Position numbers and translations under genes: made by a program
Origin: Dioszegia crocea
Taxonomy: Eukaryota > Basidiomycota > Tremellomycetes > Tremellales > Bulleribasidiaceae
Assembly (NCBI GenBank): GCA_001600615.1
Contig: BCKK01000001.1
Span: 597,082-661,081, forward strand
Length of the DNA: 64,000 nt
Direction of reading: 5' to 3'
Shown here: positions 20,128 to 27,910 of the stretch, in pieces
Layout: each line of letters starts with the position of its first letter
How positions within the stretch are numbered: position 1 is the first letter of the stretch
The notes under the pieces: generated by a model
Databases searched by the model: none
Told to the model about the DNA's origin: nothing
Seen by the model: the letters and a program-made list of their open reading frames with translations, nothing else

Positions 20128-21240
20128 ATGGCGGAGCAGACCCAAAACTCGTTCCAGAGGCAACACCTCTTCCAGAACGCCAAGTCAAAGGGTGCGTTAG
20201 ATGTCCAATCGAAAGAATGGGGGAGGAGGAGGACAGGGGAGATAGTTAGGGGGAGATGAAGAGACCTTAAGCTGACCTAGTGCCTTTCTTGTATATCCCT
20301 CTACTATCATCAAATCCCATACCTTTATCTCTACGCCCTCTCCCTCATCAATATGCACTCGCTACCTCATATGCTGGAATTGCTTGGATGAACAGGCGGG
20401 AAGAAGGTCACCACCAAGACAAAGCGATGGTACAAGGATGTCGGACTTGGTTTCCGTACACCTGCTGGTAAGTTAATTTGCGCTGTTCAAGGGCGTATTG
20501 GCGCGAGGCTCGGCGGATGTGAATAGAAGGGACGGCAGGAAGCGACTGTTGGGGAGGGGAGGGAAATGCTGCCAAAATCGAGAATGCGGGGGATGGGTCC
20601 GGTGGACACGCCGTATCGCCGTGGAAGGCACCATCGCTGTCATTGTGTGAATATGCGGCGAGGCTCTCTATGGGGGATGGCTGTGAGGCTGAGGGAGATT
20701 TGGAATATCAGAGCACGGGAACTCTGGCTAACATTTTGCAGAGGCTATCAACGGTACTTACATCGACAAGAAGTGCCCCTTCACTGGCGATGTCTCCATC
20801 CGTGGACGTATCTTGACCGGTGTCGTTCACTCCACCAAAATGACCAACACCATCATCATCCGACGAGACTACCTCCACTTGTGAGTTTGAATTTTCAAGA
20901 GGATCATTTGGATTATGAATTTTGAAGGGATGATAATTCGGCGGTGAGGCGCATAGAGGGAGTGCAGACGTTGGGAATGTCGATCGGGATAGGTGGCATA
21001 TCGGGATCATCAGACAATTGATTATCGTGTGAATTTCGCTAATCCTCCAGCATCCCCAAATACCGCCGATACGAGAAACGCCACAAGAACCTCGCTGCCC
21101 ACTGCTCCCCCGCTTTCCGTGTCGAGAACGGTGACCAGGTCACTGTTGGCCAGTGCCGACCTTTGTCCAAGACTGTCCGATTCAACGTCCTCCGAGTGGC
21201 CAAGAACAAGGCGGCGGCCAAGGCTTTCCAGAAGTTCTAA
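20128..21240 (+). CDS. RPS11: 40S ribosomal protein uS17 (RPS11)
   Basis: Exons 20128-20191, 20396-20467, 20742-20880, 21051-21240; 154 residues, the usual length. Small-subunit protein contacting 18S rRNA. Hallmark runs are present: [61 protein letters not shown] and [17 protein letters not shown]. Its three introns (204, 274 and 170 nt) are far longer than the ~50-nt introns of other genes in the window, a pattern common in ribosomal protein genes; they could host small RNAs or regulate splicing, but I found no clear C/D-box pair by eye. Confidence 0.97.
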
Positions 21241-22020
21241 ATTAGGGCTGAAGGGGGGTTTTGGGTATGGATGCATGGGATTGATGACTGTCTGCGGGAT
21301 GTCAGTGGGGACGTTCACGTTGACTGGGTCATACGTGTCGAGCCTGCTTCCGAGCATACTGACGCGATCTTACCAGCTAACATGAAATTGGGCCGATCGT
21401 CCGAGGTCCAGGCTGTGTTGTGAGATGGGCTCACTTCGATTGTGTAAAACGGCGCCCTTGACCTTCGGTCAATATCAGCTTTATCGCCCTTATGGAGAGG
21501 ACATCGCGACGATGGGGCAACTAGGGGATCAAGCCGATCTTGGAGTGCCTCGTCGAGGCGGTGTGTGATCATTTCTAAGCCGTATGATCTACCTGGGCCG
21601 GCGCCCAATCATAGACTTGCTACGTTCTCAACAGTGCTCGGTTCCTGGGTCTTGTGAGGCCTTTTCAAAGATTTCCGGCTGAAGCGTTACGTATGACAAT
21701 CGTCAATCCCGGCCCGGTCGGAGCCGAGAATATCATAAGGTTCCAAGCTAGCTCAGGCTCGTGCTCTCGGCTTGCCCTTGTCCTCTCTTCCGCCTTTCTA
21801 CTCCGGAGTGGTGGCGTCGGATGGCTGGGCGTTGGGCGCTGAGCCTGCAAGCTGCAGCGGGGCCCTTCATGCTGTCTCCACCAAGTTCAATGCGACAGTT
21901 TGCAAGCTGTCTGTATATCCCTCCAATTGTACGACAACATCAGCAACGATCTTGATCCCTCCACTCAATCCACCCGGATACTAGTCGGTCGTCCTGCACG
22001 CCCCGGTAACCCATACCGCA
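21241..22020. other. Gap between uS17 and the tandem family
   Basis: The only suggestive frame is 21772-21984 plus, whose peptide has secreted-like character (FNATVCKLSVYPSNCTTTS) and ends 36 bases before the first copy of the tandem family. It does not align with that family's exons, and I could not join it to them. It might be a fragment of a lost gene or chance. Confidence 0.35.
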
Positions 22021-22911
22021 ATGCAATTCTCCAACAACACCGCTCCTGCGGGAATGACGGTGTGTAACTCGAACGCCCCGATGCCGCAGGTGAGTCTACA
22101 GCCCTACTGTCTACTGTCCCTGCCAATTTGCATCAGCTCGTGGGATCTGCTGACTCCCATGTTTAGCTTACAGTGATGAAAGGCTTCTCTATCAATATCA
22201 CTATGCCAGGTACTCCACCATACCGCCTGACCGCATCGTAAGTCCACATCCCCCATTGGGACCTATATCTATGAGCAGCTGCTGATAGCCCAGTCCTCAA
22301 CGAGGAAACACTACCATTGTGAGTTGCCGCCGAAAGGATTCTGCTCCGTCTGTTACACCATTCAATGCTGTATCTAACTTAATCTACAGTGCCCGAGCCA
22401 CTCTCAAAACCTGACAAGCAAAGTCTTCACTTGGGTAGTCAATACCAGCGACAACTCGACTGAGCTGAGCAACATGTCGGGAGATCTGTCTCAGCGGCCT
22501 GGTAGAAGTTTGGATCCGGTATTCCAGGTGGGAGATGCAGTGTGAGTATCTCCATTCTTGCTCGGGCCTGTCTCTGAGTGGCCGGCTCTGCTCTGATATC
22601 TCGTTTTGCGAATTGTGTCTTGACTGACATCAAATAGCCAATGGATCGCCCACGAATGGACCCCTCAAGCCAACGGGCAATTCAGATATTACATATCTTC
22701 CAACTATACAGTGACTTCGGAGGAGAAGAGTCTTGCCGATCAGGCGAAAGCGCGGGCTGGAGGTTTCAAGGTCGCAGAGTGAGTCTCAGCCATCTCCACG
22801 TTTGCTGCTGCTATGGGATATCACGAGTACTGATTTCTACTCAGATCGGGTATGGTTGGCTGGCTTATTGGAGCATTGCTTCTGTCCGGCGTTGCAGCGA
22901 TGGGAATGTAG
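22021..22911 (+). CDS. Tandem orphan family, copy 1: glycoprotein-like with C-terminal membrane segment
   Basis: Exons 22021-22089, 22167-22237, 22294-22318, 22390-22541, 22638-22778, 22845-22911; 174 residues. Not recognised. The start MQFSNNTAPAGMTVC is followed by GTPPYRLTAS, a PQRGN turn, a conserved Cys, FTWVVN, PVFQVGDAVQWIAHEW, a GQFRYY strand and finally a hydrophobic tail (GMVGWLIGALLLSGVAAMG). About eight N-x-S/T sequons and two conserved Cys suggest an ER-lumen or cell-surface domain; the tail may be a GPI signal or a single membrane anchor. The PPYxLT ... FTW ... GD pattern recalls small beta-sandwich (Kre9/KNH-like) domains of basidiomycetes; that link is inference. No N-terminal signal peptide is visible from this ATG. 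Confidence 0.75.
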
Positions 22912-23549
22912 GGAATAGAAGGGGGTGTTGGTCCCTCGTCGATTCGGGCGGCAGGTCAACTTGGATCAACGAAAGAAATCAGACAGTGGGGTTGTATATA
23001 TTGCTATGAACATACTTGGACTCGGATTGAGCTGCTAAAGACGCTATGCATACCTCACAGCTACTTCGTTATGCACAGACCTGCAGCTACCGGCCTCATC
23101 CACAGCTGCCACCGCTCCGCAGACGCAGTACCAACAACATCATCCCCGGTCAAATCCGAATCTGGACCTCGGCCTCGGCGCCGTCTCTCTGTGCCGGAAC
23201 CGATATTCGCTCCACACTGTCGCACTAGCGACTAGCACTTGCTGGGCGTCGTCGGGCGGGGCAACGCACTGGTCCTGTACGGTTGACCCATCACAGCCCC
23301 TGCCGATCGAGCGCTTATCTCTGCTGAGGCGCTGAGGCAGCTTATCGCCCCCGCCGCTCCTCGATAGTCCTCGATGTCACCGCCCCTCATGTTGTGAAGT
23401 ACGCTACCGGAGCCCGGCCGGCCGGAGCCCATGTGAGGCTTGTGAGCAGCGGGAGCTGCTCTTATCTCGATATTGGGCAGATATAAAGTCATACACCTCG
23501 ATCTTCGACATATTCCGCCCAAAGCCAAACAAATTGGTATCATCACACT
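22912..23549. other. Spacer between copies 1 and 2
   Basis: No gene seen. ATATAAAG at 23481-23488 lies 69 bases before the ATG of copy 2 and is a reasonable TATA box. The open frames at 23046-23228 and 23232-23546 (minus) show no features. Confidence 0.45.
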
Positions 23550-24413
23550 ATGTCTTTATCCAACGGTACTGCCCCAGTCGGTCAGACGGTCTGTGGGAGA
23601 TCAGATCCAGGAACTACCGGGGTAAGTTGACAACTTCCATAGCCACAGCCGCTTTTCAAGCCTCGGAACTCCACGTATGTCAGCTCGCTGATCGGCTTGA
23701 ACAGATCCGAGCGTCCCCCAGAACTCCCGTCACTTTTACATTTGGCGGAAACCCGCCTTATCGTCTGACTGCTACGTGAGTCTAGTGTCATCGTGTCAAA
23801 GGAGGGCAAGAAGTGCTTTGATGGCGGGGCGACTTGCAGGCATTTCAACTGAGGTGTACATATCAGCGCTGATACCTACAGTCCTCAGCGAGGTAATGGC
23901 TTTGTCGTACGTCTTTTCCCCGGGTTCCTGGCTTTGAGGGTCAATGAGCTGATCATTTAGTGCGCAAGTCATCAGCAGAACCTCACGACCAACACCTTCG
24001 TATGGAATCCTGAGGTCACTACGAACGTCACGGCGATAGTGACGCAATCTGGTGATCTGTCGACATATCCAGGTCATGGGCTGAACCCGGTATTCCAGGA
24101 TGGAGAGGAAGTGTGAGTGAAACATCCCCCTCTGTCGCCCTTGGCGCTGACATGGCGCACTGACCACGATCAGGCAGTGGATAGCTCACGAATGGGCACT
24201 TCAGCCAAATGGGCAATACCGTTACTTCAAATCTCAATTCTACGTAGTCACCTCCGACAATCGACAATCCGGGGTCCTGAGAATAAACAAGTGAGTCTTG
24301 CAGGGTTTGAGACCGGTGGTTTACATTTCGCTCGCTGATGGAGTAGTGTGGGGTCTGGAGGCTGGTTAATCGGCGCGTTGCTGTTGTCTGGAGTGCTCGT
24401 TATGGGCTGGTAG
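23550..24413 (+). CDS. Tandem orphan family, copy 2
   Basis: Exons 23550-23621, 23705-23775, 23882-23906, 23961-24112, 24174-24290, 24347-24413; 167 residues. Exons 2, 3, 4 and 6 have exactly the lengths of copy 1 (71, 25, 152 and 67 nt) with the same phases. Shared elements: NGTAPVGQTVC, GGNPPYRLTAT, PQRGN, a Cys opening exon 4, PVFQDGEEVQWIAHEW, NGQYRYFKS and a tail GGWLIGALLLSGVLVMGW. Three sequons are seen, fewer than in the other copies. The 83-nt first intron begins GTAAGT and ends at AACAG before ATCCG. A TATA-like ATATAAAG lies 69 bases upstream. Function unknown. Confidence 0.78.
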
Positions 24414-25254
24414 TGTTGACGTCGTGACTCGTCGCGGCGAGATTGGGCGACAGGCTGGGTTGATCAGACGGTAGTGGACAAGATGAGCTGCTCGGATCTC
24501 ATCAGGTGTCTCTGGAGGAACTTAGTACGTTTCGGTAAGAAAGAGGGGCAGTGTAAATATGCCGTCTCGGCCTAGTTGTATCTTGTAGCAGTGTATCAGC
24601 ATTGCCAGCAATCAGACATTAAGCCTCGCTTCGTTCTGATCGACCCCCTTGACCTCAAAGCATCTTTTGGGCTTAAGGAGTCGCTTCAATATCCGATGTG
24701 AAGGCTCAGCCTAGTTTGAAGGTCGTCTGGTACTCTATAAGGCTCTGTAGCCTCGGAGGAAGAAGGTGAGTGTCTGGTGGCAAAATGCGCCACTTGCACG
24801 CTCGCTTCCGTCGGAACTTCGCCAAGGTGTGGAGACCCCGAAAGGCTGAATCTTCGCCCAAGCCCCTGATTACTTTTCTCACCTCGCAGACTTCGCCTAT
24901 CCGATGATGCTTCGCGCTCGCGCTCATACTGTACCTGGTCCGGACGACACTGAGGTCAAGCTCAGGCCAGCTGGCAGGACCAGAGGTGCGGACACACATT
25001 GCGGAGCCGAGATCCGGGCCGAGTCGGCGTGAGGTTTACGCAGACGCCGAGCCTGGAGCTCCATCACGCTATACAGATCTTGGCATGTACCGCTTACCAC
25101 CTGTTGACGTTGCGGGAGCCCGCCGAGACTGACTGCATATCCACCATGCGCACCTCACATACTCTGCCACTCTGCCACAGATGGGGAGACTCAAGATCAT
25201 ATATGTTCTTCTCGATCCTTCAGTACTTAATCTGGACCGACTCAATATCTCATC
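24414..25254. other. Spacer between copies 2 and 3
   Basis: 841 bp without a convincing gene. The minus-strand open frame 24706-24999 is not supported by motifs or splice structure. Presumed 3' and 5' flanks of the two family members. Confidence 0.45.
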
Positions 25255-26194
25255 ATGAACGGCATCACTGGAGCTCGTAATGGCACTGCCTTGGCTGGTA
25301 TCAACGTCTGTCAACCCAGTAATATATCCTTGACACCACAGGTGAGCTTTGACAGTCACTTGACCTCCCGAGATCCGCAGCAGGAAAGAGCTGACAAAGC
25401 TGTAGCTACGAATTCAGAACCAGTCTGTGGTTAATATCTCCTTCGCATCTGGTAATCCGCCCTTTAGGCTATCAGGAACGTAAGTTTAGTCCTGTCAGGT
25501 GGAAATGTGTGAGATATTTGACTGACGCGTATAGTCCGAGACGACATGGGACGTTCTTGGTGAGTAAGATTACTGTGGACATGAGTCCCGTAATCAGCCT
25601 CAAGAAGCAATGCCTCGCCCTGGATGAAGCTGAAATACAATGTACAGAGCTGACAGTCCGCGCAGTGCCAAGTACACGTCCAAAGCCTCAACACCAGCTG
25701 GTTCTTGTGGAACGTAACCACCACGACGAACGCCACAGCCCTCAATCTCACCTCGGGCGATCTCACCACTAATCCCTATTCGGGCAGTAACTCGCCTGTG
25801 TTTCAAATTGGAGATGTCGTGTAAGTCTTAGTCCTCTGTTATCTCTCTGCCCGGAGTAGGCGAGGTAGATATCCATTGTGGGTGGTGTGCCTGGGAGTGT
25901 TATTGCCGTCCGCGTCCTACACCACGAGCTGACCATTCAGACAATGGACAGCTCACGAGATCGCTGCTCAGCCAGACGGGATGCACAGATACTTCAAATC
26001 TGAGAACTTCACAATCACCACAGCCAACGGAAGCACCGAGTATTACCCTCCTCAGTCAGGCGGTCTACGAGTCGCAGAGTAAGTCGGTGCGGTCTGAGCG
26101 GTAGAGCCTTGCGCTGACTTTCATCAGGGCTGGGATGATGGGTTGGCTTGTGGGCGGACTGTTGCTATCTCTGATTGCTGTTGTGGGTGTATAG
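25255..26194 (+). CDS. Tandem orphan family, copy 3
   Basis: Exons 25255-25341, 25406-25479, 25535-25559, 25666-25820, 25941-26078, 26128-26194; 181 residues. Third exon (25 nt) and last exon (67 nt) match the other copies exactly; exons 2 and 4 differ by one codon each. Common features: NGTALAGINVC near the start, GNPPFRLSGTPRR, a Cys at the exon 4 start, FLWNVT, SPVFQIGDVVQWTAHE, GMHRYFKSENFTITT, and a tail GMMGWLVGGLLLSLIAVVG. About ten sequons make it the most glycosylation-prone copy. Divergence between copies is high, so the duplication is old. Function unknown. Confidence 0.78.
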
Positions 26195-26598: not shown

Positions 26599-27910
26599 AT
26601 GCCGCCCCGCCAAACCCGCGCTCCAAGCACCGACACCCTCCTCCCACCCATCCTCTCCCTCCTCGCCCAACCCTCTCCTAACCCTTACTCAGCACATCAG
26701 AAGGCTTTAACCACTGTCGCACGCATAGCATCTTCCGCACCCTCAGTAGCGGTTGAGATCTGCTTTGCGACTGCGAGAGAGTTGTTGAAGCTTGGTGAAG
26801 GTGGAAGTGGGGTGGAATTGGGAGTGAGAGGATTAGGGATTTTGGAAACTACGGCTGAGGACATTGATCAGAAGACGCGAGGTGAGCTGGCTGATTCACA
26901 TTCATTATCTGAGATACAGGATCCAAGCTGATATCACTAGCGTCCATCACTCAGCTTTTGGCCTTGACGCCCTCTGCTGGGCCTTGGCGCAAGAAGCTTG
27001 CAGATGCCGCTATCAAGTATTCTGCACATGCAGGGGAATGTCCAACGGGTGACCCGGCTCTGCATCACTATATCGGAGAACTATACTACAAGGGTCCGCT
27101 CATAGTTTCGCGACGTAGTCAAGCTTAAGCTGACTTTTCAGACCGTCAATTCGCCCAAGCCGAGACCCACCTTCTCGCCAGCCACAAGCGCGACTCAGCC
27201 ATCACTCTCGCTGAGATGATGTTTGACTGGAGCGAGAAGGGTGGGTTGGACCCAGGTCCATATGCCGTTCGAGGGGTCTTACCGTACGTCCCCCCAGTCC
27301 TTGCTCAGATATAGGCTGATGAGCCAGCTACCTATCCCATCAACCACCCTCAATCCTACCCGCCGCCTCATTCCTTACACACTTCCTATACCTCCTCTCC
27401 AACTCTTCGACACCATTCAGCTCTTCGGGTAAATTCTTATCGACCCACCCGTCCCCGCCTGACGCCCCGTTCCCTTCTATCCTCGTCACTGCTTCGCCGA
27501 CGCTGAACTTCCTCCAGCTTGCGATTCTGACGATTCAGCGGGCGCCGGCAGTTGGGACTTCCGGTGTGCAGGCGCGAGGAATGGATGGTGGGTTGGGTAG
27601 GGAGTGGGAGAATCTGGTCGGGAGGTATAGGCGAACTGTGGGCAATTCTGGTGTTCTGGCACAGGGCGAAGTTTTGGAAGTGAGTCTTGTGCTTTGAGTC
27701 TGTGATCCGGTCGGTGGGAAAGGTGGGCAGGACGAGAGGGCCGACCTTTTAGACCGATAGGAATTGGTCCTTAGGGATACAAGCTGACATCAATAGGTAC
27801 TTGCCCAAATCTCAACGAATGTCTTCCTTATCCCTCCGCCAAGAGGACAACAGCCCGATATGCTGCAGAACCTTATGGGCTCTCTGTTTGGTGGCGGTGG
27901 TGAGCGATAA
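26599..27910 (+). CDS. GET4: Get4, tail-anchored protein targeting factor
   Basis: Exons 26599-26881, 26941-27093, 27142-27283, 27328-27679, 27797-27910; 347 residues. Get4 pairs with Get5 and bridges the Sgt2 chaperone to the Get3 ATPase, feeding tail-anchored proteins to the ER. The protein is an all-helical repeat: SAHQKALTTVARIA at the start, then KKLADAAIKYS, GDPALHHYIGELYYK, FAQAETHLLAS and LNFLQLAILTIQR are typical. The end (PDMLQNLMGSLFGGGGER) matches the family's short Gly-rich C-terminus. The second intron has a weak donor (GTCCGC), but splicing there restores the helix frame. No relation to neighbours, though the tandem tail-containing proteins lie just upstream. Confidence 0.92.

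Follow-up and report, generated by a model that had tools for sequence, protein, structure and literature searches.

The window analysed here, a stretch of 64,000 nucleotides (nt) from contig BCKK01000001.1 of the basidiomycete Dioszegia crocea (G+C content 53.4%), contains at positions 22021-26194 three tandem plus-strand genes, designated g1, g2 and g3, which encode small proteins of 174, 167 and 181 amino acids. Reconstruction of GT..AG splicing gives six exons in each gene, with common intron phases of 0,2,0,2,2; exons of 25 and 67 nt occur in all three genes, those of 71 and 152 nt are shared by two, and the open frames run to stops ending at 22911 (g1), 24413 (g2) and 26194 (g3). The 15 introns measure 49-120 nt, and every one of them has GT..AG ends and a CTRAY branch-site motif, the first base of which lies 12-17 nt before the intron end. 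A preliminary description of this DNA had listed three adjacent plus-strand genes of six exons with identical phases and recurrent exon lengths, and all of these features are reproduced by splicing.

The common motif plan given in that description is likewise present in each of the three proteins: N[NG]T near the start, a cysteine, PP[YF]RL, a cysteine whose codon opens exon 4, FQ.G[DE].VQW.AHE, RY[YF], and a hydrophobic C-terminus. Protein identity, which had been called low, is 50.6% between g1 and g2, 43.4% between g1 and g3, and 49.1% between g2 and g3, that is, 43-51%, and g3 begins at 25255. The genes (supported by splicing, branch sites and conservation in Dioszegia hungarica), their fourth exons (splicing and alignment) and their last exons (splicing, exon identity and hydrophobicity) are as follows.

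22021-22089, 22167-22237, 22294-22318, 22390-22541, 22638-22778, 22845-22911, plus strand: g1, exons of 69, 71, 25, 152, 141 and 67 nt
22390-22541, plus strand: g1 exon 4, which opens with the invariant CxxH, contains N-x-T and SGDL, and closes with VFQ.GD
22845-22911, plus strand: g1 exon 6, hydrophobic C-terminal tail up to the stop
23550-23621, 23705-23775, 23882-23906, 23961-24112, 24174-24290, 24347-24413, plus strand: g2, exons of 72, 71, 25, 152, 117 and 67 nt
23961-24112, plus strand: g2 exon 4, content as in g1 except for the closing VFQ.GE
24347-24413, plus strand: g2 exon 6, hydrophobic C-terminal tail
25255-25341, 25406-25479, 25535-25559, 25666-25820, 25941-26078, 26128-26194, plus strand: g3, exons of 87, 74, 25, 155, 138 and 67 nt
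25666-25820, plus strand: g3 exon 4, content as in g1 with one codon more
26128-26194, plus strand: g3 exon 6, hydrophobic C-terminal tail

Relatives and divergence of the family

We searched about 5.8 billion proteins by a method that reaches only those with short exact words in common with the query. The single relative returned, obtained both with a single sequence (1 of 49 candidates) and with a four-row profile (1 of 7827), is the uncharacterised protein MKK02DRAFT_29303 of D. hungarica, hereafter P0001; the profile included P0001 itself, so that its profile E-value is not independent. P0001 belongs to the same family, being 53% identical to g1, 48% to g2 and 44% to g3, and it shares with them the length plan, the start position, the two cysteines, CxxH, SGDL, PVFQ.GD.VQ, AHE and the GWL[IV]GALLLS tail. 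It departs from them in having GNNA and no N[NG]T near the start, VQF for VQW, and RFY for RY[YF]; it was returned as a single copy, unlike the three-gene cluster of D. crocea, and it is annotated to continue 65 residues beyond the family end, an extension that holds a further cysteine and is probably a gene-model error. Among the four sequences 47 columns are invariant, and they include (in g1 numbering) C15, C56xxH59, N77xT79, SGDL, PVFQxG, AHE (H111-E112) and GxxGWLxGxLLLS.

The D. crocea genome (20.57 Mb in 17 contigs) was searched in six frames, with introns ignored and the best candidates considered. With g2 as the query, g3 is found at E 2.8e-9 and exon 4 of g1 at E 5.4e-9, and the 9, 8, 10 and 10 matches to E 10 obtained with g2, P0001, g3 and g1, respectively, all lie inside the cluster. 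Because of the genome-wide matches of g2, the same intron grammar in 15 of 15 introns, and the overall plan kept in D. hungarica, the cluster is not a product of chance; the splicing and the own-genome searches bear out the proposal of tandem paralogs with a frozen gene structure, and we regard it as nearly certain that the three genes form a genuine family, whatever the proteins do. The pattern G-x-P-P-[YF]-R-L was also tried as a paralog finder and was rejected. It has 14 sites in the genome, three of which are g1-g3, and on its own it is uninformative, because the reversed pattern gives 25 matches and the loci outside the family lack profile support: in six-frame comparison with the family profile, no score better than E 1.4 is reached by the remaining 11 loci, by two from a narrower pattern (one of them shared), or by three KNH loci.

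The family thus appears genus-restricted on present data, in the sense that it is not seen in the annotated proteomes of other genera. The gene models of D. crocea are not among the returned proteins, and other Dioszegia assemblies may likewise be absent; the same search finds GET4, the product of the gene downstream of the cluster, in many other Tremellomycetes, so that such proteomes are represented in the searched set. Among the papers listed on Dioszegia genomes, on surface and effector proteins and on orphan families nothing on this family turned up, and none was found for the MKK02DRAFT locus tags.

The three copies are old duplicates that, as judged from their codons, have evolved under purifying selection on average. 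In pairwise comparisons of g1-g3 differences are found at 37-45% of first, 34-37% of second and 61-68% of third codon positions, the third positions being 1.6-2.0 times as diverged as the second. Nonsynonymous divergence (dN) is 0.48-0.60; synonymous divergence (dS) is saturated, with values of 1.9-3.3 in the two of three pairs for which it could be computed and no value from YN00 for any of the three. The diversifying pressure suggested earlier for the cluster finds no support in these figures. An unrooted maximum-likelihood quartet groups g2 with g3 against g1 with the D. hungarica protein in 96% of 200 bootstrap replicates, a topology that leaves the order of triplication and species split unfixed. 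Identity between the two species is 44-53% for the family, far below the 88% of the adjacent GET4-like gene, and therefore either the family evolves fast or the compared copies are not orthologs.

The upstream neighbor (20128-21240, plus strand) consists of several exons and, by eye, looks like the small ribosomal subunit protein uS17 (RPS11). The downstream neighbor (26599-27910, plus strand) is the GET4 homolog, which has PF04190 in its relatives and is 88% identical to the D. hungarica protein and at most 69% to the other 64 matches listed; in one of its introns the donor appears to be GTCCGC, which is unusual. In D. hungarica synteny of P0001 with GET4 was not found, the former being on a contig of 2,166,071 bases and the latter on one of 2,306,351. 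No tRNA genes were detected by ARAGORN, and no Rfam families at the gathering score, in the 64,000 nt of the window.

Known families and fold

No significant match to any entry of Pfam, NCBIfam, PHROG or PDB was found, and the earlier remark that no named family with this layout was known is borne out by the profile, library and protein searches. The best Pfam match, Ig_Pom152 for g1 (E 0.11; 13.2 bits, with the cut-off at 27), and two unnamed PHROGs, each matching one family member (E 0.064 and 0.15), are not credible; the NCBIfam scan gives nothing up to E 1. The nine PDB sequence matches of the profile are all ephrin-B2 chains (E 0.78-1.1), and g2 alone matches a glutathione transferase at E 0.33; we take both as chance.

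A comparison with Kre9/KNH-like domains had been proposed, and sequence profiles lend it no support. None of the four family members matches Kre9_KNH (PF10342, cut-off 24.6 bits) up to E 10; two KNH domains taken from the D. crocea genome for positive control reach 59.9 and 51.1 bits (E 4.1e-16 and 2.3e-13). When the family is aligned with these domains by hhalign, the probability is 0.1% over 3 aligned columns, from shallow alignments of 4 and 2 rows. Elsewhere in the genome, two Kre9/KNH-type matches (L018 and L020; contig 4, minus strand, 320927-321142 and 322397-322609) lie about 1.3 kb apart and may be a tandem pair; one is above the Pfam cut-off and the other is at E 0.055.

Alignments of the exon fragments A4, A7 and A10 were visibly misplaced and were set aside. 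An AlphaFold model was computed from P0001 and nine exon fragments of the window. It is weak (predicted local distance difference test, pLDDT, 51; predicted template modelling score, pTM, 0.29) and too poor to name a fold. The modelled strands at 36-41, 48-52, 65-69, 73-78, 117-121 and 127-131 (P0001 numbering), followed by helices from 140, hint at a strand-rich domain.

Protein ends, sequons and membrane topology

Exactly two cysteines, both invariant, are found in each of the four family regions, P0001 having been trimmed to its first 180 residues for this count. Serine plus threonine make up 18-20% of residues. The N-x-S/T sequons number 26 in all, compared with a shuffle mean of 9.2 (standard deviation 2.7), and 0 of 20000 shuffles reach 26; the excess is uneven, with 5 sequons in P0001 (p 0.06). 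In at least three of the four sequences five aligned columns hold a sequon and two the reversed motif [ST]xN, and in all four there is one column of each. The N-terminus is polar, and its best 19-residue segment scores +10.8 or worse on a membrane-insertion scale, so that strong hydrophobicity is confined to one segment, at the C-terminus, where the 19-residue sum of -0.6 to +1.4 is marginal. Between this segment and the stop lie 0, 2 and 0 residues in g1, g2 and g3, respectively. A hydrophobic stretch reaching the stop is also a mark of glycosylphosphatidylinositol (GPI) signals; g1-g3 have it, and P0001 as annotated continues for 65 residues. The last exon, which encodes the tail, is the best-conserved exon in two of the pairs (15/22 residues identical between g1 and g2, 13/22 between g1 and g3).

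The reading that we favor, and to which we give an even chance as a whole, is that g1-g3 are old tandem duplicates, of a family seen only in Dioszegia on present data, that encode a small, C-terminally anchored, outward-facing coat or adhesion protein. In each product a domain of about 130 residues, small and probably rich in strands, would carry exactly two, invariant, cysteines that probably form one disulfide; it would be followed by a short hydrophobic C-terminus, encoded by an exon of its own, the last, and this tail would hold the domain at a membrane. The outward orientation is suggested by the combination of the cysteine pair, the sequons and the hydrophobic C-terminus: the domain would most likely face the secretory pathway or the cell surface and be glycosylated, and the copies would have diverged under purifying selection on average. 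We are dealing with a genuine orphan family, without a name in the libraries searched, which otherwise looks like an ordinary lineage-specific one.

Several observations weigh against an outward-facing coat protein. The sequon excess is absent from g2 (3 sequons, p 0.31), and the reversed motif is itself frequent (20 occurrences), so that much of the excess comes from local richness in N, S and T; among columns aligned in at least two of the four sequences the two motifs are equal, six and six. As for the earlier label 'glycoprotein-like', the frequency of sequons stands, a signal peptide to go with them was not found, and the evidence for N-glycosylation, read from sequence, is moderate, not strong. 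Conservation of residues in the tail would be more in keeping with a functional membrane helix than with a GPI signal that is cut off and lost, and in the g2-g3 pair exon 6 (11/22) falls below exon 5 (22/39). The model of pLDDT 51 gives no Foldseek match to PDB at E <= 0.001 (75 matches at E <= 10). No signal peptide is recognised in g1, g2 or g3 and no upstream exon able to supply one was found, and the favored reading offers no explanation of how the domain would cross a membrane without it.

Both a signal peptide and a spliceable upstream exon were looked for, and the result bears on the possibility, which we consider unlikely, that these are GPI-anchored surface proteins of an ordinary cell-wall family with the signal peptide on an unrecognised exon behind an unusual 5' intron. 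The sequons, the cysteine pair and the marginally hydrophobic tail with 0-2 residues beyond it would all fit. Upstream of the N[NG]T codon, however, the frame is open for just 16, 25 and 16 codons in g1, g2 and g3, and none of the AG sites listed there (1, 2 and 1 per gene) has CTRAY 9-45 nt before it, as opposed to 15 of the 15 accepted introns. When a GTRNG donor and an intron of 45-400 nt are required, there are 3, 0 and 2 candidate first exons, none strongly hydrophobic at its start; the best has a Kyte-Doolittle value of 1.9 over 9 residues, and of 150 positions drawn at random from the window 18% reach at least 2.0. If introns may have any length within the intergenic region and first exons may measure up to 200 nt, the best values are 2.09 for g1 and 0.83 for g3, with no candidate for g2. 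Nor is there coding similarity among the upstream regions at E <= 1 in any of six comparisons. The P0001 model starts at the same position as g1-g3, in a genome that was annotated automatically; the term 'RNA-seq' is absent from the main text of the paper describing it (PMC9713403). TATA-like elements, by consensus match only, stand before the three start codons:

21914-21918, plus strand: TATA-like element, 107 nt upstream of the g1 ATG
23482-23487, plus strand: TATAAA, 68 nt upstream of the g2 ATG
25200-25205, plus strand: TATATG, 55 nt upstream of the g3 ATG

The main rival follows from the missing signal peptide. Tail-anchored proteins are defined by one transmembrane segment lying no more than about 30 residues from the C-terminus, together with the lack of a signal peptide; the sequences of g1-g3 conform to this, with only marginal hydrophobicity. 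The proteins would then be inserted post-translationally by the GET route into the endoplasmic reticulum or another membrane, and some 150 residues would function as a cytosolic domain; the sequons would be irrelevant, and the CxxH and AHE residues may bind metal or act in redox chemistry. We hold this to be a serious though lesser possibility: it agrees with a tail that ends 0-2 residues short of the stop in g1-g3 and with the invariant C15, C56xxH59 and H111-E112, and it is countered, moderately in each case, by the aligned sequon columns, by a family region without any non-conserved cysteine and by the content of serine and threonine, as well as by a tail that is marginal for a membrane helix. 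That a GET-pathway gene adjoins possibly tail-anchored proteins is probably a coincidence. A further reading, in which a glycosylated, C-terminally anchored, outward-facing and genus-restricted family has its domain of about 150 residues translocated without a signal peptide by a tail-directed or unconventional route, seems improbable to us. Less credible still is the view that these proteins belong, as a far-diverged branch, to the Kre9/KNH-type family of Ig-like domains. The strands of the weak model speak for it, as do PP[YF]RL and the strand order, which we take to resemble basidiomycete Ig-like domains; the negative Pfam and hhalign comparisons speak against it, and so does the lack of the signal peptide that the two KNH proteins of this genome have (by eye).

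Comparison with known systems

Taxon-restricted tandem families are common, and g1-g3 are one more. Their value is that of a clean test case, as they combine an orphan family and a fixed six-exon structure with a related copy in a second species, and pose the puzzle of an extracellular-looking domain, with its cysteine pair and sequons, for which no signal peptide can be recognised. A published account calls Dioszegia a 'hub' taxon among the microbes of plant leaves (PMC6597690); surface proteins specific to the genus could matter for leaf communities, and no evidence here ties g1-g3 to that role.

Two known kinds of protein come closest to the family. Kre9/KNH-like proteins with Ig-like domains likewise have a small surface-type domain and a hydrophobic C-terminal tail, and, unlike the family, the two that we read in the D. 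crocea genome have, by eye, a signal peptide and a stretch rich in serine and threonine. Tail-anchored membrane proteins, the substrates of GET, share with g1-g3 both the absence of a signal peptide and the single hydrophobic segment at the C-terminus, whereas the D. crocea family differs from them in its paired cysteines and partly conserved sequons.

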